From assembly GCA_038884455.1 (NCBI GenBank), contig JAWABU010000015.1:1-41388 (forward strand): a DNA stretch of 41,388 bases, given 5' to 3'. Under the pieces are notes generated by a model. It worked only from the letters and a program-made list of their open reading frames with translations. It was not told the DNA's origin and did no database searches. Position numbers and translations under genes: made by a program. Shown here in pieces: positions 4,035 to 40,385 of this stretch (position 1 is its first letter; every line of letters begins with the position of its first letter). This DNA is from Candidatus Thermoplasmatota archaeon. Its GTDB lineage: Archaea; Thermoplasmatota; E2; DHVEG-1.

Positions 4035-4044
4035 CTTTAATTAA
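4035..4044 (+). promoter_or_regulatory. TATA box of tRNA-Cys
   Basis: CTTTAATTAA lies about 27-36 bp upstream of the mature tRNA 5' end, the expected distance for an archaeal TATA box. Confidence 0.6.
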
Positions 4045-4070
4045 TGCTGTCTTCATTACACTTCAGCTGT

Positions 4071-4141
4071 GGGCGGGTAACAAAGCGGCTATGTGGCGGA
4101 CTGCAGATCCGTATACGTGGGTTCAATTCCCACTCCGCCCT
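4071..4141 (+). tRNA. tRNA-Cys (GCA)
   Basis: A full cloverleaf can be drawn. The acceptor stem is GGGCGGG with TCCGCCC, ending in a G-U pair. The D stem is ACA/TGT, the anticodon stem GCGGA/TCCGT around the loop CTGCAGA with anticodon GCA at 4103-4105, and the T stem GTGGG/CCCAC around TTCAATT. The discriminator at 4141 is U, the known identity base for tRNA-Cys. There is no intron and CCA is not encoded. It lies 25 bp upstream of the next gene and could share its transcript. Confidence 0.95.
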
Positions 4142-4166
4142 CTTCTATATATGGAGTAGGAGTCTT

Positions 4167-7100
4167 ATGAAACAGATAATCACAGGAATAAAACTCTTTG
4201 TGATTATTTTTATTTTATTTTTTATATTTATATTTATAAATGAAAAAATAGTTGTATCTATAAACGACCATACCTTACCGTGTATATTCATTAACGAAGT
4301 TATGTACAATCCCATCTATGATGACAATTATTACGAATGGGTAGAACTCTACAATCCAACAAACCAATCTATCAATATATCAGGATGGACAATAACTGAT
4401 AATTACTCAGAAGATCTTCTCGAAGGAGATAGAGATCATGGAAACGGAACAACCATCATTCCTCCAAATGGATATGCACTCATAACAGATCATGGAACAA
4501 TGTTTTATGAAAACTGCACTACCCCAGACAACACAGTACGACTCTATGTACATGACAATAGCATCGGCAATGGTCTGAGCAACACAAAAGATAAACTCAT
4601 ATTAAAAAATCAACAACGAATCATCATCGATGCAATAGAATGGGGAGAAGATTATCCAGATATACCTGGAACTCCTTTTCACCTCATTGACGAAAACCAT
4701 TCCTTATCAAGGTACCACCTCCAACACACTAATGATACTTCAATCGATTTCTATGATGAACTAAACCCAACACCCGGAAGCCAAAATAATAACATACCAT
4801 TTGTAGAACCAGAGATTGCCTGCGAGCTCTATCCACAGTATATTGCAAAAATACCAAGAAACAAACAATATAGTTCGCCATTCCTCATCAAAATTACCCT
4901 TAAAAACATCACGCTTCTATCACAACTTCAATTGAAAGCCTACGTTGTAGGAAATGTCTCCCACAATTATCCAGCAACACAAATATACATGAATCATCTT
5001 TGGCAATATGCATATTACTATCAAAATATCACTGTCGATAACAAAGATAAATATACACTCTATGTACCACTCAGATTTAAAAAAGATTACCAAGAATATC
5101 AACAATACATCAGAGATAGCACAAGAGCATATCTGGTCATAAAAATAAAAATCGACCTGAAAACATACGAACATCTAACTACTGTTACTCTTATGGACCT
5201 GGATAATACAACAACCAACGGAACAGCAGGGGGATACATTGTCGGTATCGCAAAAAAGAATGACACAATTCTTGAAAATACACTCATCTGCGTAAAAAAC
5301 AGTTTAGGCCAATGCACCGGTTTTTACAGAACTGAAAATAATGATATTGACGATAATGCAATAATCTATAATGGATACTACAAAATCCCAACACCAATTG
5401 GAACTAATTATTCACTCCAGTTTATCGACGACAATAATAGTATTGTCTACGAGATAACAAATATCACAGTAGAACCAGGAGAATACGATGTCCGTCTCAG
5501 CAGTTCCACAACTTTTTATCAAGTACTGCGAGGAAAGAACATAACAATACCAATCAACATTACAAATACAGGAAAATTTCCCGATAACTATCTCATAAAA
5601 ATTAACGATATTCCTCCTGAGTGGTCGGTACTCATACATACCTCACTAGTCTACCTTCATCAAAATGCTACCTGCGAAGTAAAACTTACTGTATTTCCGT
5701 CTCTAAAAAAAGAGTATTCATTAGGTATCATTACGCTTCATGCAACATCATCAACAGATCCAATTATGACAACATCATTACAGATAACAATAGAGGTGCT
5801 TGCACCAGATCTGGTCATACCAACAATTAAATGTCTCAATGAAAATAATAAAGAAAATTACACCTACAATCATGGAGAAATAATCACTATTAAAGCATTT
5901 ACAAAAAATCAAGGAAATTACAATGCAACCAACGTCACGGTAACGTTTTATTATGACCAACAAGACCGAAATCATTTTCTTGGGAGGAGATCATTCGATT
6001 CAATCGGAAAATATCAAAAATATCCATCCCTTGAATGGGACACCCAAAATGTTTCTCCTGGGCTGCATACTCTACTTGTTGTCGTTGATGAAGAAAACAA
6101 AATCGAAGAATTTAACGAAACAAATAACAATAACTCTGTTCAAATACTTCTCCATAAAACACTACCTGACCCAGGCAAAGATATCCTCATTACTGAAATT
6201 TATTATCATACACATCCATGTATAAAAAATGAGTTTATCACCATCTACAACCCAACAGAAAAATTTATCGACATATCGGGTTGGTATCTCACAAATAATC
6301 CACAAAAGCCGTATCAAAAACAAACAAAAATTTTTTTCCCAAACAGAACTATTCTTTTTAGCCAATCAAAACTCCTCATAACACAAAATGCTACAGATTA
6401 TCTTTTTGAAACAGGACTGCAACCTGATTTTGAATATCTCCATGATTCGATTTTCAATATTCCAAACATGATAGCGCAAAAAGCATTTAGTCTTAGTAAT
6501 ATAGGAGAAGCGCTTGCGTTAAAAGACCCGTGGAATCATACTATCGATTTGATCATATATGGAAAGAGCAACCTGACGCTTGTTGGATGGAGCGGCCCTC
6601 CAGTAAATGCATCAGGTGCTGGCGTTATTTTAAAACGAAATTTTAAGAATAATAGACCGTGTGATACTAATACCTCCGTAGATTGGATTCACCCTCGCCG
6701 ATATGGGATAGGCCAATCAGATTTTCCGCTTGTATCGTATAATGTTTCAGCATCGGTCACAACTTTCGTTTCACCTGATTGTAGCTATTTTGCAGTATGT
6801 AATGAACTTCGAAATGCAACAAAATCTATTGTTTTGAATATGTATGAATTTACCAATCCATCTCTGGGTGATGAGCTACTAGCAGCATTACAACGAAATA
6901 TATCAGTTCGTATTTTTATGGAAGGATCACCTGTAGGAGGTATCGACAACCAACAAAAAATCATTTTACAGAAACTGCATGACCTTGGAGCAGAGATTCG
7001 CTTTATCGTTAGTGACCCTAAAAACAATGTGTATGCGCGGTATCCCTATAATCATGCAAAATATTGTATTATCGATGATCAGTCAGTTATCGTTCAAAGT

Positions 7101-8036
7101 TGCAACTATGTAAAAACAGCAGTTCCGTGTAATCCAAGTTTTGGTAATCGAGAATGGGGAATTATAATGAGAAATACAACTATTGCTAATTCTTTTACTT
7201 CTGTATTTAATGATGATTGGAATCCACAACGCTGCGATAGTTACACCTTCGAGGCAATGAATTTTTCGATATCTCTGGACGACATTGATCTTGATACCTC
7301 AATTCCAACAGGTCGTTATACTCCTCGATTTTCACCAAAAACCTATATAACTCACTGTACAATAACACCGATATTTTCCCCAGATACAAGCGAGCAAGCA
7401 ATATGTCATCTCATCGATTCTGCTCAACAAACTATCTATATTGAACAACTCTATATCTACAAAGACTGGGAGGCAACAATAAATCCTTTTGTTCAAAAAC
7501 TTATCCAAAAAGCACAGGAAGGTGTTGACGTAAAAATTCTTTTAAATTTCAACCCAAAATATGATTCAGGAAATTCACAACAAATGAAAGTAAAATCGTA
7601 CATTGAGCAATTTGGCATACAAGTACGTTTCTTTTATACGAATTGGTCGATTTTTACGAATATCCATAATAAGGGCGTGATTGTTGATAATACATCTGTA
7701 CTCATTTCAAGTATAAACTGGAATGAAAACTCTGTACGAAAAAATCGAGAAGCAGGAGTAATCGTTGAAAATCAAGATATTGCAACGTATTATGCTGAGG
7801 TTTTTTTCTACGACTGGAATTACAATCAGAAAAAAAATCATCAAGAAATAAAACAACAATCTAAAAATTTTGAACGTAATACATCATTTGACATCTTTGG
7901 GATATTATTAGATCGAAGCAATCAAAACCCGCAAGAAACTACAGGAGAGTATAAAAACATCTTAGCTATTGTCTGTATATTTATTATAACGGTCGTTATC
8001 ATCATGAATGACTGGAGAAAACGTTCATGGAAATAA
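4167..8036 (+). CDS. Giant membrane-anchored surface protein: LTD, CARDB and two phospholipase-D-like domains
   Basis: A predicted extracellular protein of 1289 residues. The ATG at 4167 is chosen because GGAGTAGGAG precedes it and the longer frame would run through tRNA-Cys. The N-terminus has a lysine followed by a strong hydrophobic segment (about 7-26). A lamin-tail domain (about 35-150, FINEVMYNP, EWVELYNPTN) follows, then beta-rich regions including a NEW3-like stretch near 450-535, a CARDB domain (about 547-665), a second lamin-tail domain (about 670-800) and two PLD domains with H963-x-K965 and H1167-x-K1169. A C-terminal transmembrane helix (about 1265-1283) is followed by a short basic tail. 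Many N-x-S/T sequons fit N-glycosylation. PLD domains cleave phosphodiesters in lipids or nucleic acids; the substrate is unknown. The rhomboid gene overlaps its 3' end. Confidence 0.85.
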   Translation: MKQIITGIKLFVIIFILFFIFIFINEKIVVSINDHTLPCIFINEVMYNPIYDDNYYEWVELYNPTNQSINISGWTITDNYSEDLLEGDRDHGNGTTIIPPNGYALITDHGTMFYENCTTPDNTVRLYVHDNSIGNGLSNTKDKLILKNQQRIIIDAIEWGEDYPDIPGTPFHLIDENHSLSRYHLQHTNDTSIDFYDELNPTPGSQNNNIPFVEPEIACELYPQYIAKIPRNKQYSSPFLIKITLKNITLLSQLQLKAYVVGNVSHNYPATQIYMNHLWQYAYYYQNITVDNKDKYTLYVPLRFKKDYQEYQQYIRDSTRAYLVIKIKIDLKTYEHLTTVTLMDLDNTTTNGTAGGYIVGIAKKNDTILENTLICVKNSLGQCTGFYRTENNDIDDNAIIYNGYYKIPTPIGTNYSLQFIDDNNSIVYEITNITVEPGEYDVRLSSSTTFYQVLRGKNITIPINITNTGKFPDNYLIKINDIPPEWSVLIHTSLVYLHQNATCEVKLTVFPSLKKEYSLGIITLHATSSTDPIMTTSLQITIEVLAPDLVIPTIKCLNENNKENYTYNHGEIITIKAFTKNQGNYNATNVTVTFYYDQQDRNHFLGRRSFDSIGKYQKYPSLEWDTQNVSPGLHTLLVVVDEENKIEEFNETNNNNSVQILLHKTLPDPGKDILITEIYYHTHPCIKNEFITIYNPTEKFIDISGWYLTNNPQKPYQKQTKIFFPNRTILFSQSKLLITQNATDYLFETGLQPDFEYLHDSIFNIPNMIAQKAFSLSNIGEALALKDPWNHTIDLIIYGKSNLTLVGWSGPPVNASGAGVILKRNFKNNRPCDTNTSVDWIHPRRYGIGQSDFPLVSYNVSASVTTFVSPDCSYFAVCNELRNATKSIVLNMYEFTNPSLGDELLAALQRNISVRIFMEGSPVGGIDNQQKIILQKLHDLGAEIRFIVSDPKNNVYARYPYNHAKYCIIDDQSVIVQSCNYVKTAVPCNPSFGNREWGIIMRNTTIANSFTSVFNDDWNPQRCDSYTFEAMNFSISLDDIDLDTSIPTGRYTPRFSPKTYITHCTITPIFSPDTSEQAICHLIDSAQQTIYIEQLYIYKDWEATINPFVQKLIQKAQEGVDVKILLNFNPKYDSGNSQQMKVKSYIEQFGIQVRFFYTNWSIFTNIHNKGVIVDNTSVLISSINWNENSVRKNREAGVIVENQDIATYYAEVFFYDWNYNQKKNHQEIKQQSKNFERNTSFDIFGILLDRSNQNPQETTGEYKNILAIVCIFIITVVIIMNDWRKRSWK

Positions 8037-17145: not shown

Positions 17146-17472
17146 GCGAAAGGTGTAGAATAGACTGGGGAGTTAGGCGTTCCCTGCAACCAGAAATCGC
17201 CGATACGCTGGGGTCGAATTCAAAAGGCGGTGTTACGAACAACTATTGATCCGTTTGTTGACGATGAAACCTTGTCCTTTGGGATCAGAGGTGATGATCG
17301 CATACAGCCGGAGGGTTGTATGCTCATCTTTACTGTGGGAACCGGGTCAGGCACGGAAGTGAGCAGCCTTACCACAGACTGCCGATGCTCAAGGGGTGAA
17401 CGGGGTTAAGAATACAGACGGGGCGTCAATGGTATGTCACGTGCACCCACTTGCGAAGCTTCTACACCCGCT
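17146..17472 (+). ncRNA. ffs: Signal recognition particle RNA (7S RNA)
   Basis: The RNA scaffold of archaeal SRP, which binds SRP54 and SRP19 to target nascent membrane and secreted proteins. The hallmark helix 8 is GGTCAGGCACGGAAGTGAGC followed by AGCC, with the GGAA tetraloop (GNAR type) at 17355-17358 closed by CAC/GTG. The ends pair into archaeal helix 1: GGTGTAGAA at 17152-17160 with TTCTACACC at 17460-17468, extended by GCG/CGC around an AAA bulge. The length near 327 nt fits the archaeal type. Exact ends are inferred from pairing and could be off by several bases. Confidence 0.93.
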
Positions 17473-17537: not shown

Positions 17538-19643
17538 ATGGTTCGATTACTAAAAGATGAAAATCTCGTTGCATCTTGGAAGAATTTCCTCGAGGAAAAA
17601 TATCGCTCTGAGATTGAAACAGTTGCCCTTGAATATCCTGAGAAAAGAAGTGTCTTTGTAGATTATTGGGATGTCGATCAATTTGATTCAAAATTATCTG
17701 AATTACTCGTAAAACAACCATACAAAGCATTATTTAATGCAGAAGCTGCATTAAATAGTATTGACGTAGCTGTAGAACATAAGGTAAATTTACATCTCCG
17801 TATCAAAAATCTATCTGAAGAACATAAAATTGCTATTCGGAAAATACGAGCAATGCATCTCGGCAAACTTGTTGCTGTAGAAGGTCTCGTCAAGAAAAGA
17901 ACCGAAGTCCGTCCGAAGTTACAGGTTGCTGCATTTCAGTGTCAGAAATGCGGTGCAGTATTGAAAATTGAGCAGGATGAAGATATTTTAAAAGAACCTG
18001 CTGAGTGCTATGAGGATCAGGGTGGTTGTGGCCGTGTTTCCTCTTTTAAACTCTCGACGAATCTTTCAACATTTATTGATTCTCAAAAAATTGAAATACA
18101 AGAGAACCCAGAGGGCCTTCGCGGAGGAGCTCAACCTGAACGTATCAGCTGCTTTCTTGAAGATGATCTCGTCGGTGAGATTGCACCTGGTGATCGGATT
18201 ATTGTCAACGGTATTTTACATTCATTGCAACGTCGTGTTGGTGCACTTCGATTGACTTCCTTTGATAAAACCATGGAGGCAATCAGTATTGAAAGCCAAG
18301 AACAAGCTTTTGAAGAAGTAGAGGTCACCGAAGAAGATGAAAAACTGATTTTAAAAACAAGTAAAGATCCAGAAATTTACGAGAAGATGAAACAAAGTAT
18401 AGCTCCAACCATTTATGGTTTGGAAACTGAGAAGGATGCATTGGTGTTGCAGTTGTTTGGTGGTCTTTCAAAAGAGATGCCTGATGGTACCCATATCCGT
18501 GGTGATATCCATATGTTGCTGGTTGGCGATCCAGGTACTGCAAAGTCCCAGATGTTAACGTATATGTCAAAAATCGCACCGCGAAGTGTGTATGCCTCAG
18601 GAAAAGCATCGTCAGCTGCAGGTCTTACCGCTGCTGCGGTCCGAGATGAATTCGGTGAAGGTCAATGGACGCTTGAAGCGGGAGCTCTTGTTCTCGCAGA
18701 TATGGGTATTGCCTGCGTCGATGAAATCGATAAAATGGATGAAACAGATCGAAGTGCTCTCTATCAAGCGATGGAACAGCAAGAAATCTCTGTTGCAAAA
18801 GCAGGGATTAACGCCACGTTAAAATCGCGGTGCTCTCTTCTGGCAGCAGCAAACCCAAAATTGGGTCGTTTTGATGATTTCAGTCCAATCCATGAACAGA
18901 TTAACATGCCGCCTGCGCTTCTTTCCCGTTTTGATCTGATTTTTTCAATTCTTGACAAACCAAACAGAAAACAAGATACAGAACTTGCAAGTCATATTCT
19001 TCGTTCACATAAAGCCGGAGAAATACGAGAAAACATTTTAAAAGCAAAAAAATCAAAATTTACAAAGGCAACTGAAAATGAAATGATGAAAATTGTTATG
19101 CCTGTTTTTGAACCAGAGTTTCTCCGGAAATATGTTGCTTACGCAAAACGCAATGTGTTTCCAGTGATGAGCGATGAAGCAATGGAGATCCTACAGAATT
19201 ACTATGTGGACTTTCGAAGTTCCTCTGAAGGTTCTGTTCCGTTTACTCCACGTCAACTTGAAGCTTTTGTTCGTCTCTCTGAGGCAAGCGCACGGATTCG
19301 ACTTAGTCAGGAAGTTACTGTGGAGGACGCAAAACGTGCGCTCTCGATTATTGATCAGTATCTCCGTCGCGTCGGTATGGATCGTGAAACCGGTAAATTT
19401 GACATTGACATTATTGCAACTGGTATCAGTCACAGTCAACAGGAACGCATGCGTTCTCTTATTGACATCATAAAACGATTAAGTATGGAATCACCTGAAC
19501 AGAGTGCTGCAAAAAGTGATATTATTACAGAAGCAGAACTGCATGGTCTTGAATCTCGAAAAGTTGAAGAAGCGCTTGATCGATTGAAACGAAACGGTCA
19601 AATCTATGAACCAAAGCAGGGAAGATATCGGATAGCAGAATAA
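17538..19643 (+). CDS. mcm: Replicative DNA helicase MCM
   Basis: The hexameric 3'-5' helicase that unwinds DNA at the archaeal replication fork. The 701-residue protein has the N-terminal domain with a zinc finger (C135-x2-C138 and C157-x6-C164), an OB fold, the AAA+ core with Walker A GDPGTAKS (330-337), Walker B VDEID (394-398) and the SRFD arginine-finger region, and a C-terminal winged helix ending in LKRNGQIYEPKQGRYRI. No intein is present. It lies downstream of both polymerase D subunits and SRP RNA on the same strand, with its own TATA box. Confidence 0.97.
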   Translation: MVRLLKDENLVASWKNFLEEKYRSEIETVALEYPEKRSVFVDYWDVDQFDSKLSELLVKQPYKALFNAEAALNSIDVAVEHKVNLHLRIKNLSEEHKIAIRKIRAMHLGKLVAVEGLVKKRTEVRPKLQVAAFQCQKCGAVLKIEQDEDILKEPAECYEDQGGCGRVSSFKLSTNLSTFIDSQKIEIQENPEGLRGGAQPERISCFLEDDLVGEIAPGDRIIVNGILHSLQRRVGALRLTSFDKTMEAISIESQEQAFEEVEVTEEDEKLILKTSKDPEIYEKMKQSIAPTIYGLETEKDALVLQLFGGLSKEMPDGTHIRGDIHMLLVGDPGTAKSQMLTYMSKIAPRSVYASGKASSAAGLTAAAVRDEFGEGQWTLEAGALVLADMGIACVDEIDKMDETDRSALYQAMEQQEISVAKAGINATLKSRCSLLAAANPKLGRFDDFSPIHEQINMPPALLSRFDLIFSILDKPNRKQDTELASHILRSHKAGEIRENILKAKKSKFTKATENEMMKIVMPVFEPEFLRKYVAYAKRNVFPVMSDEAMEILQNYYVDFRSSSEGSVPFTPRQLEAFVRLSEASARIRLSQEVTVEDAKRALSIIDQYLRRVGMDRETGKFDIDIIATGISHSQQERMRSLIDIIKRLSMESPEQSAAKSDIITEAELHGLESRKVEEALDRLKRNGQIYEPKQGRYRIAE

Positions 19644-27709: not shown

Positions 27710-29566
27710 ATGCGAAAAAATCACATTTGCATTCTCAGCAGCATAGCCATCCTTATTCTACTAAATATCAATATTCAATCAATACCTGGATTACAACATC
27801 AACCTTTGCTACAAACGATTCAATCAACAGAATATTTTTCACCGCCAATAATTCATCAAAACGATGAGTATACCACCATTACACTTGCTGAGTCAAACTC
27901 AGTATTAACACAGGACAACAAACCGATGCTCCCAGTTGTGGTTAAAACCTTTGAATTTCCTGTAGGTACAAAAATCCTCGGAATCGAAGGTATTCCTTCC
28001 AACGGTAAGATGATCTCAATCCAGAAAAAAATCCAACCAGGACCAATCAAGCAAAAAATAGATTCAAAGATCATCCTCTTGCAAGAAAGTGGTGATCAAG
28101 AAACGTATGCCAGCCAAAAATTTTATCCTGAAGCATGGTATCATTATACCGTTGGACGAGGACTCAATAAAAAGAATGATCCTACTGTTTTTGTATCGAT
28201 CCATATCTATCCAATACGATATTGCGCTGCAGAAAATCTCATAACAACAATCCAGTCAATACAACTTATAATTACCTATGAACAACACCCTGTAGGTATC
28301 CTCTCTAAAGAATCCTATGATCTATTAATCATAGCACCTGCAGAGTTCTCAGCACATCTACAACCGTTACTCACCCATAAAAATAGTTATACTATGCGAA
28401 CAATTCTTCAAAATCTTGAAGATATTTATACTAATTTTCCCGGCCGAGACAATGCTGAACAAATTAAATATTGCGTAAAATACGCCTATGATACGTGGAA
28501 CATACAGTATGTTCTTCTCGTCGGGGATATGAAAAAATTGCCGATACGGCATACGTATGCATCATGGTGGGAACCAGACATCTTAAGTGATCTGTATTAT
28601 GCTGATATCTATGACGAACATGATATTTTCTGTAGTTGGGATGGAAATAATAACAATAAATTTGGTGAAACGAATCATGATAACGATATCGACGGTGTTG
28701 ATTTGTATCCAGATGTTCATATTGGACGACTTGCATGTTCGAATATACAAGAAGTTGATACTGTTGTCAACAAGATCATTACTTATGAAACGACAACGTA
28801 TCATCAATCATGGTTTAATACCGTGATTGTTGCAGGAGGAGATACATTTCCACCAGGATGCGGAGCACCTCCAAATGTTTTTGAGGGAGAGATAACAAAT
28901 GCAAAGGTGTTAGAACAGCTTCCCTCGTTTTCTCCTGTGAAACTGTGGTCATCAACAAAGAATCTCAATGCACAGATGTTCAACAAGGCGATTAACCAAG
29001 GCGCAGGTTTCCTAAGCTATGCAGGACATGGCTTTGAACATGGATGGGGGACCTATCGGCCGAACTCATTACGATATAAAATGGGGTTTAGCCAACCGTT
29101 GTACTATACACCATTTATTAAAAAACTATATAATCAGAATCAACTTCCGGTAATGTTTTTTGATGCATGTCTAACGGCAAAGCTTGATTTCAATGTTTCT
29201 GATCTCATGCGATATTATCCTGTTTTTACCAATCTTTTAATAGCTCTTTCTCAAATTGAAAACAATCCATCAATCTTTTATCCCTGTTTTGCATGGAGTT
29301 TTGTTGCCTATGAAAACGGCGGTGCTATAGCAACTATTGGTGCTACGAGAACAGCATATACTCATGTTGATAGCAATGGTGTTTATGCTGGTGCAGGATA
29401 TCTTGACGTACATTTCTTTCAAGGATATGAAGAAGGAGTCCATCTTGGACAGATGTTAACGAGAAGTCAGAATGATTATATCAACTATGTTGGTCCTGAT
29501 TACTTTACAATCGAAGAATTTATTCTACTTGGTGATCCTAGCTTAAAGATTGGTGGGTATCCATAA
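27710..29566 (+). CDS. Secreted C25 (gingipain-like) cysteine peptidase
   Basis: A 618-residue predicted extracellular protease. An N-terminal signal (about 6-24) precedes a propeptide-like beta region with PMLPVVVKTFEFPVGTKI, typical of C25 propeptides. The caspase-like catalytic domain begins near 205 (YDLLIIAPAEF) and contains VGDMKKLPIRH, H440 in SYAGHGFEHGWG and nucleophile C487 in FFDACLTAK, so the His-Cys dyad is complete. There is no C-terminal anchor or repeat region, so the enzyme may be released or associate with another surface protein. It is divergent from the PKD protein. Confidence 0.88.
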   Translation: MRKNHICILSSIAILILLNINIQSIPGLQHQPLLQTIQSTEYFSPPIIHQNDEYTTITLAESNSVLTQDNKPMLPVVVKTFEFPVGTKILGIEGIPSNGKMISIQKKIQPGPIKQKIDSKIILLQESGDQETYASQKFYPEAWYHYTVGRGLNKKNDPTVFVSIHIYPIRYCAAENLITTIQSIQLIITYEQHPVGILSKESYDLLIIAPAEFSAHLQPLLTHKNSYTMRTILQNLEDIYTNFPGRDNAEQIKYCVKYAYDTWNIQYVLLVGDMKKLPIRHTYASWWEPDILSDLYYADIYDEHDIFCSWDGNNNNKFGETNHDNDIDGVDLYPDVHIGRLACSNIQEVDTVVNKIITYETTTYHQSWFNTVIVAGGDTFPPGCGAPPNVFEGEITNAKVLEQLPSFSPVKLWSSTKNLNAQMFNKAINQGAGFLSYAGHGFEHGWGTYRPNSLRYKMGFSQPLYYTPFIKKLYNQNQLPVMFFDACLTAKLDFNVSDLMRYYPVFTNLLIALSQIENNPSIFYPCFAWSFVAYENGGAIATIGATRTAYTHVDSNGVYAGAGYLDVHFFQGYEEGVHLGQMLTRSQNDYINYVGPDYFTIEEFILLGDPSLKIGGYP

Positions 29567-29669
29567 ACAGTACAATATACCTATACAATTGTAATCGTTA
29601 GTTGGATCTTTATGATTTCTTATATTCATCACCATATATACTTGGAGTAAAAACAGATGATGGAAAACT

Positions 29670-29680
29670 ATTTATTTAAA
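29670..29680 (+). promoter_or_regulatory. TATA box for the RNA candidate
   Basis: ATTTATTTAAA lies roughly 20-26 bp before the first bases of the closing stem, a spacing that fits an archaeal promoter for a stable RNA. Confidence 0.5.
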
Positions 29681-29695
29681 AAGAATATTGCATAA

Positions 29696-29788
29696 TGGGG
29701 GACAAAGAGTAATACTTGGGGAGGCTGCTTTGAGTATCTGCTTTCCACGAAAGGCACATTCCTCCTATCCAACGCATCCCGTCCCCCA
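29696..29788 (+). ncRNA. Putative structured non-coding RNA, 93 nt, class unknown
   Basis: The ends form a perfect 8-bp stem, TGGGGGAC (29696-29703) with GTCCCCCA (29781-29788). Inside, TTGG plus GGAGG pairs with CCTCC, a TAT bulge and CCAA, and an apical hairpin CTTTC-CAC-GAAAG follows. The GC-rich stems stand out in very AT-rich surroundings, and no ORF covers the segment. A TATA box lies at the correct distance upstream and a hairpin directly downstream. It lacks a T-arm, so it is not a tRNA, and C/D, H/ACA, 5S, SRP and RNase P hallmarks were not recognised. Strand is inferred from the promoter. Confidence 0.55.
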
Positions 29789-29805
29789 CTTTTCTGAAGA
29801 AAAGT
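29788..29805 (+). terminator. Possible terminator hairpin after the RNA candidate
   Basis: ACTTTTC-TGAA-GAAAAGT is a perfect 7-bp stem with a 4-nt loop, starting at the last base of the RNA stem. It is not followed by a long T-run, so the role is uncertain. Confidence 0.35.
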
Positions 29806-29873: not shown

Positions 29874-30185
29874 TTAGTCAAAAAGTGCGCTGAGACCGGC
29901 TGCAGCTTCTTCCTGTGACACTTCTTCTTTTTTCTCTTCCTTTTTCTTTGCATCTTTCTTTTCTGCAGGTACATCAGCAGCTGTTTGTGCAGGTGCAGCA
30001 ACAGGTAGTGCTGCAGCGGATTTTATTGCTTCATCTATGTTGACACCTTCAAGTGATGCAACAAGTGCTTTAATCCGGGCTTCATCTGGTTTCACGCCAG
30101 CTGCAGTAAGAACCTTTTTAACATGTTCTTCAGTAATTTTTTGTCCTGCGGAGTGGAGAAGCATTGCACTGTAGATATATTCCAT
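29874..30185 (-). CDS. rpl12: 50S ribosomal protein L12 (P1-like stalk protein)
   Basis: A 103-residue acidic stalk protein that recruits translation factors to the ribosome. It has the N-terminal dimerisation domain ([20 protein letters not shown]), an Ala-rich hinge, a Lys/Glu-rich linker and the conserved factor-binding tail [10 protein letters not shown]. It is the last gene of the L1-L10-L12 operon, 15 bp after L10. Confidence 0.97.
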
Positions 30186-39131: not shown

Positions 39132-40385
39132 TTAGTTATGTTCATTCGCATCATTTCTTCGTGAGTTGTCGTTTTCGCAGATGCGACTACCATTAATGGT
39201 ATCTTCTTGAGGTATCTCTTCATCAGTGAGGGGAATTTCAAGGAGATGTTTTGGGAGAAACCGGAGATTTGCAATCAATGTTGGGATGACTGCGCTCCCG
39301 ATTACAACGGCAACGAGATATGAATATTGTTCTTGGGAAATAATGCCCTGGGTTAAGCCATAGATTGCTGAAATTGTCCCAAACGTTAGACCTGTTGACA
39401 TCAGAAGAGTGTAATACCATCGTTCGCGTTTATCTGTTCTAAATTTTCCGATTACTGGATATAAACCAAAGATTTTAGAAATTACTTTTCCACTAAGGAG
39501 GATAATAAAAATCAATGGTGCAGAGACAAGCACGGGGAGCGAAACAAGAGATCCTGCACGGAGGAAATAAAACGGTGTTAAAAACCCTATGGTTAACGTT
39601 CGAAGTCTTCGAATAAAAAAATCATCTTTGCTCACGGTACCGGCAAGAACCATACCAAGAAGATATGCCGGAAGAACTGCTTCGCTTCCAGACCAAAGAG
39701 CAAGAGCACCTAACGAGAATAGAACAAAGAGGATCCATTTTGTTCGTATAGCTGCAGTTTTATAGGCATACCGTTTGATTAGTACTTTCGTTATCTTCGG
39801 CATCGCGATAAAAGCAACAATCACCAAACCAATAAAAATTCCAGTTTTATAGGTAAATGGAGCAAACAGCAGACCTAACGCAACTACCGTACCAATGTCG
39901 TTAATGAAGCATGCACCAAGAATTCCTTTCCCATATTCAGTTTTGTTAAAACCGTATTCTAACATAACAGCATACACTACGGCCATTGATGTTGTTGACA
40001 ATGCTACCCCGGTGAGAAGACTTGCAGGGATACTCCACTGCAGGATGAAATATGCGATCGCTGAGCAGCCAAGAAACGGCGCAAAAAAACCGATGACACC
40101 AACAATAATTACTTCCTTAGTTTTTGATTTTAACGAGGATGGATCAAGCTCTGCGCCTGCTAAAAACGTAAGTAAAATTGCCCCGGAACTTGCAATAAAA
40201 ATCAACCAATCCTCATTTGCATGGAGCGCATCTGGTCCGATATACTGTGTTGCAAGGTATCCTGCAATAACACCAATGCAGATTTCCATAAGTGCCATTG
40301 ATATTTTTAATTTGTAGGCAAGAATTGTTGAAATGAGTGCAAGTCCAAGCCATACCGCAGCAATCGAAAATTGTTCTAATCCCAA
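39132..40385 (-). CDS. Cation/proton antiporter (CPA family, NapA/KefB-like)
   Basis: A 417-residue membrane protein with about 12 helices that should exchange Na+ or K+ for H+. FLAGAELDPSSLK (75-87) is the conserved helix and loop, and N162-D163 in ACFINDIG is the ion-binding pair; ND rather than DD is more common in electroneutral exchangers. A polar tail (about 392-417) is cytoplasmic and has no RCK/TrkA-N domain. Translation starts at TTG, 7-8 bp after a strong AGGAGGT, and a 28-codon upstream ORF overlaps the start. The upstream leader is long and looks structured, suggesting post-transcriptional control. Confidence 0.9.
   Translation of the reverse strand: MGLEQFSIAAVWLGLALISTILAYKLKISMALMEICIGVIAGYLATQYIGPDALHANEDWLIFIASSGAILLTFLAGAELDPSSLKSKTKEVIIVGVIGFFAPFLGCSAIAYFILQWSIPASLLTGVALSTTSMAVVYAVMLEYGFNKTEYGKGILGACFINDIGTVVALGLLFAPFTYKTGIFIGLVIVAFIAMPKITKVLIKRYAYKTAAIRTKWILFVLFSLGALALWSGSEAVLPAYLLGMVLAGTVSKDDFFIRRLRTLTIGFLTPFYFLRAGSLVSLPVLVSAPLIFIILLSGKVISKIFGLYPVIGKFRTDKRERWYYTLLMSTGLTFGTISAIYGLTQGIISQEQYSYLVAVVIGSAVIPTLIANLRFLPKHLLEIPLTDEEIPQEDTINGSRICENDNSRRNDANEHN

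Follow-up and report, generated by a model that had tools for sequence, protein, structure and literature searches.

Between two convergent genes of a Thermoplasmatota archaeon lies a short GC-rich segment which raises the question of whether it encodes an RNA of its own or is an appendage of its neighbors. The stretch of DNA analyzed here (41,388 nt, referred to as the window) comes from a 1.70 Mb assembly whose named relatives are Thermoplasmatota MAGs. The segment is flanked by a C25 peptidase gene (27710-29566, plus strand) and by rpl12 (29874-30185, minus strand), with the 3′ ends of both genes facing it. A preliminary description, based on the letters of the window, proposed a stand-alone structured RNA of unknown class at this position. 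It was right that the segment is GC-rich within an AT-rich gap, as its GC fraction is 0.48-0.52 against 0.14-0.28 in the adjoining sequence. The comparative analysis points with high confidence to a free-standing gene for a structured noncoding RNA, with a predicted transcript of about 94 nt. The features of the locus, all on the plus strand, are as follows.

29662 to 29676, plus strand: BRE and TATA box of the RNA gene, GGAAAACTATTTATT; in 27 of 29 homologues, an equivalent motif is spaced 28-29 nt from the leading G of P1
29696 to 29789, plus strand: candidate RNA gene of about 94 nt (covariance-model match, single-copy in the 29 of 45 family genomes that have it; promoter spacing)
29696 to 29703, plus strand: 5′ strand of predicted stem P1, TGGGGGAC (7 of 8 pairs invariant in 29 sequences)
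29704 to 29717, plus strand: A-rich joining segment on the 5′ side, variable, with a length of 11-17 nt among relatives (split alignment and alignment A2)
29720 to 29724, plus strand: 5′ strand of predicted stem P2, GGAGG (pair counts; present in nearly all individual folds)
29725 to 29734, plus strand: variable segment, shortened in 7 relatives, in which TGCTTT (29726-29731) can pair with AAAGGCA (29750-29756) as P3
29735 to 29748, plus strand: near-invariant TATCTGCTTTCCAC, in which GCTTT (29740-29744) can instead pair with AAAGGC (29750-29755) as P4 (alignment, pair counts)
29761 to 29765, plus strand: 3′ strand of P2, CCTCC (pair counts; individual folds)
29766 to 29780, plus strand: near-invariant 3′ joining strand TATCCAACGCATCCC, mostly unpaired (alignment; mean pairing probabilities)
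29781 to 29788, plus strand: 3′ strand of P1, GTCCCCCA (alignment and pair counts)

The distribution of the element among related genomes carries much of the argument. A blastn search with a 106-nt query detects clear homologues across many genera of the window's own Thermoplasmatota family and no convincing homologue in other families. A covariance model made from 23 homologues detects the element in 29 of the 45 genomes of the family, each with exactly one high-scoring copy. A second model, made from these 29 sequences, recovers the same 29 among 390 Thermoplasmatota genomes and none of the 345 outside the family; the model searches were also run at the order and class levels. The RNA-bearing genomes represent at least 16 genera. 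Mean pairwise identity reaches 77% within the RNA, compared with 37% in the sequence preceding the promoter and 33% in that following the RNA, and the edges of this conservation coincide with the ends of P1. Conservation over this range of genomes and genera excludes a chance origin. The lack of conservation in relatives, which according to the preliminary description would speak against an RNA gene, is thus not what is observed, and its suggestion of a lineage-specific RNA agrees with the restriction to a single family. Viral contigs yielded 37 exact 15-mer matches, none of which scores as the RNA; the plasmid collection contained no match to the element, and nothing was found in the literature on this lineage and noncoding RNA.

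The second line of evidence is the promoter. In 27 of the 29 genomes, the motif GAAAA-N-TATTTATT places its first TATA base 28-29 nt upstream of the first G of P1, and in the window GGAAAACTATTTATT stands 28 nt before G29697. Such spacing is the distance expected between an archaeal TATA box and a start site at this G. The TATA box, already recognized in the single sequence as properly spaced, is therefore a preserved property of the family, marking the putative transcription start at the base of P1 and the element as a transcription unit of its own. The predicted RNA begins at T29696/G29697 and ends in the T-run past C29789. Directly downstream of P1, a hairpin ACTTTTC-TGAA-GAAAAGT (29788-29805) is present, as the preliminary description states; it is, however, private to the window's genome, as downstream identity falls to 33% and the homologues have only ACTT(T/C)T in common 3′ of P1.

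The gene order around the element bears on the view that it acts in cis, as a 3′ UTR structure, as a terminator or insulator of convergent genes, or as a regulator of rpl12. Its position between two convergent 3′ ends in the window would fit such a role, as would rpl12 being its downstream neighbor in 27 of 29 genomes. However, the upstream neighbor changes: it is the C25 peptidase gene in most RNA-bearing genomes and a DNA polymerase B gene in G020, G009, and the early-branching G022, where a small ORF lies between the polymerase gene and the RNA. The RNA persists beside these other upstream genes and, within the fetched loci, also without an adjacent rpl12 in G018 and G022. Conversely, the C25-rpl12 junction is retained without the RNA in g6, g20, and one f2 genome. 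The changing upstream neighbor, together with rpl12 adjacent in 27 of 29 cases, therefore indicates a free-standing gene rather than a cis-element, as does the conserved promoter, and a cis-acting role is considered very improbable. Archaeal ribosomal leaders, which lie upstream of ribosomal protein genes, are likewise lineage-limited intergenic elements with a structure predicted by comparison (PMC7247131). The element resembles them in these three respects, but it does not occupy a leader position for rpl12 and forms a free-standing unit with its own conserved promoter. The divergent copy of the early-branching G022 (L071, 1502-1591) precedes the start of a same-strand ORF, and rpl12 is not adjacent to it.

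The absence of the RNA from part of the family allows its history to be outlined. In a tree of the L10/P0 protein, the RNA-bearing genomes fall within a clade supported by 96/95, and the outer branches of the family, g14 and g20, are without the RNA. The orthologous rpl12 junctions from other families and from the hit-less genera were searched by the model with filters off and revealed no hidden copy. The rpl12 contigs of G061, G007, and G004 stop before the expected site, so that the absence of the RNA from these genomes is uninformative; G067 carries other sequence at this site. The simplest reading would be one gain inside the family, followed by one clear loss in g6. Since g6 and the early-branching genera are without the RNA, it serves no universal core function. 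In G019 (g20), where no RNA was found, the gap between the C25 and rpl12 genes (L083, 1045-1110) has GCATTCCTCC after a GAGAAAAATACC motif, and GCATTCCTCC is possibly a decayed or precursor copy, or a chance occurrence.

The secondary structure is regarded as probable. The two strands of P1, TGGGGGAC and GTCCCCCA, close the element, also in the minimum free energy folds, which confirms the perfect 8-bp closing stem noticed in the window (29696-29703 with 29781-29788). P1 appears in every folded sequence and the inner P2 in nearly every one. The window sequence itself folds modestly better than chance (z from -1.6 to -1.9 against shuffles), therefore the single-sequence argument of the preliminary description is insufficient alone. 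Each of the eight tested homologues folds below its own shuffles, with z from -1.3 to -4.3. Within P2, two further helices are conceivable, P3 and P4, which are mutually exclusive because both compete for one 3′ strand. P3 joins the variable segment to UAAAGG in the long forms and is missing from the short ones. In the 23 long forms, own partners pair at -6.6 kcal/mol compared with -5.5 kcal/mol for swapped partners (0.0002 of permutations), a comparison in which relatedness was not controlled. For P4 (GCUUU/RAAGGC), the cells compatible with pairing amount to 94.5%, counted over all forms. In the locus L070, an insertion builds a perfect additional hairpin, and the divergent, early-branching L071 retains P2-like and P3-like helices with an altered sequence.

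Covariation does not add to this structure. Among the 29 sequences, the changes in P2 and P4 are not above shuffles, and P1 is nearly without variation; an RNAalifold consensus of 23 sequences mis-paired the second stem and contained no compensatory change. The preliminary description had named covariation among the homologous loci next to rpl12 as a check, and the formal test gave no excess over shuffles. Of its nested compensating stems, the inner GGAGG/CCTCC stem is present, but the compensation does not exceed that of shuffles. Covariation is not demonstrable because the sequence is so invariant. The lack of any compensatory change in P1 is also what a DNA-level binding or recombination site would show, the inverted repeat GGGGGAC/GTCCCCC being then read in double-stranded DNA, and a single copy per genome would suit such a site. 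However, the BRE/TATA motif at a fixed distance, the sharp conservation edges at the stem ends, the asymmetry of the inner conserved segments, and an inner length variation which preserves hairpins (L070, L071) all speak against this explanation, which is given little probability, hardly more than the cis-acting role.

If the element is an RNA gene, the next question is whether it belongs to a described class. Rfam 15, searched at gathering and permissive thresholds with the window locus and ten homologous loci, returned chance-level matches only, e.g., ceN103 with an E-value of 2.1. The element shares with tRNA and tRNA-like RNAs a terminal stem of 7-8 bp and a length of about 90 nt, but ARAGORN reports nothing at the element and there is no RF00005 match in the window or the ten loci. 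Its size and stand-alone intergenic position are those of an archaeal C/D box sRNA; the C box RUGAUGA occurs in none of the 29 sequences and the D box CUGA in four. An archaeal H/ACA guide RNA is also small, with a closing stem that carries an internal loop. However, only 2 of 29 sequences have an ANA box immediately 3′ of the stem. A guide pocket requires both sides of the internal loop, but in the element its 5′ side varies, and the best complementarity to rRNA lies within the range of the shuffled controls. Y RNA and YrlA, which are bound by Ro60, have ends paired in a single stem, a pyrimidine-rich interior, and a short U-rich tail; the element is alike in outline only and matches no Rfam family. 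The earlier statement that no RNA class is recognizable is supported by the Rfam, ARAGORN, C/D, and H/ACA box tests.

A short protein-coding gene is suggested by open frames in some copies. Indels of 1 and 2 nt occur inside the element, and stops lie in different frames between genomes; because the length changes are not in threes and the stops shift frame, there is no conserved ORF, and, save for a very short peptide, this frame analysis refutes a coding role, the likelihood of which is negligible. The promoter at a fixed distance, the single copy, the changing neighbors, and the lack of an Rfam, C/D, H/ACA, or tRNA match therefore lead to a stand-alone, lineage-restricted RNA gene of a class not recognized so far, as originally proposed. 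Judged from sequence comparison, the predicted RNA represents a new archaeal family, restricted to one lineage, within the broad and already known kind of orphan structured RNAs.

The strongest competitor for the function is a trans-acting antisense sRNA, whose pyrimidine-rich conserved segment would seed on translation starts, e.g., UUCCUCCUAU with a strong Shine-Dalgarno sequence like that of the neighboring rpl12. In almost all RNA-bearing genomes, (T)AGGAGGAA precedes the rpl12 start, with 8-10 nt complementary to UUCCUCCUAU. However, the predicted structures pair CCUCC within P2, and the RNA variants CCUCCC (g13) and UUUCUCC (g4) are not accompanied by a matching change of the rpl12 site. 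The pairing of UUCCUCCUAU with the rpl12 Shine-Dalgarno sequence was rejected, as the two sites show no co-change. A second candidate target is the start of a TrmB-like HTH gene, where ATGCGGAAAGCAG complements CUGCUUUCCGC perfectly over 11 nt in G009, G010, G027, and G034 (loci L106, L126, L127, and L128). Across 44 genomes, the complement of CUGCUUUCCRC forms one orthologous cluster, at this TrmB-like start codon, in the genera g10 and g11 only; among the other family members examined, the orthologues do not have it. The complement of CAAYGCAUCCC, from the 3′ segment, yields self-matches only, in the RNA gene of the window's genome (G000) and of the single-contig chromosomes G001, G006, and G026. 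Complementarity to the genome's own 16S and 23S rRNA is no better than the range of shuffled-rRNA controls, which counts against an antisense role as well. Thus, 11-nt complements of either near-invariant segment reveal no target conserved elsewhere, which disfavors a guide or antisense role with long pairing; pairing through shorter seeds would be conceivable. Overall, an antisense function is a minority view, though one with some weight.

A protein-bound RNA is preferred because there is no long conserved target, the P1 strands and loops are invariant, and the gene is single-copy. The molecule may act as the RNA component of a small ribonucleoprotein, a proposal given about an even chance, and the same balance holds for the RNA gene and this mechanism taken together. 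In such a particle, P1 would close the RNA end-to-end and so stabilize the molecule, and P2 would present the apical hairpin. The segments UAYCUGCUUUCC and UAUC(C)AAYGCAUCCC, along with the invariant P1, would be the parts read by sequence; the invariance of both P1 strands and of the unpaired segments fits such recognition. P1 and the 3′ joining strand would be the contact sites of a lineage-specific protein, and a second molecule would be contacted by the apical loop. That the RNA founds a new functional class, as a ribonucleoprotein RNA which arose once in the family, became nearly frozen, and is unrelated to described RNAs, is a more speculative and less probable extension.

To our knowledge, few free-standing structured RNAs have been described in archaea besides the guide, SRP, and RNase P RNAs. 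The candidate described here has a traceable origin, being absent from the sister families and the early-branching genera and found in nearly every assessable member of one clade. It would therefore offer a well-delimited example of a young RNA gene that is strongly constrained, single-copy, equipped with a clear promoter, and almost frozen in sequence. The covariance model could be used to annotate the RNA and to retrieve it from sediment metatranscriptomes.

Other structured RNAs were observed in the window. The gene of the archaeal SRP RNA (17153-17467, plus strand, 205 bits) is closely followed by an MCM helicase gene (17538-19643). A fluoride riboswitch (RF01734; 40476-40551, minus strand, 42.6 bits) is located just upstream of a gene of the Na+/H+-exchanger family (39132-40385, minus strand). 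A 1330-aa ORF (4044-8036, plus strand), which has phospholipase-D, lamin-tail, and CARDB domains, includes a tRNA-Cys (4071-4142, plus strand) in its mechanical start; the ORF probably begins downstream of this tRNA.
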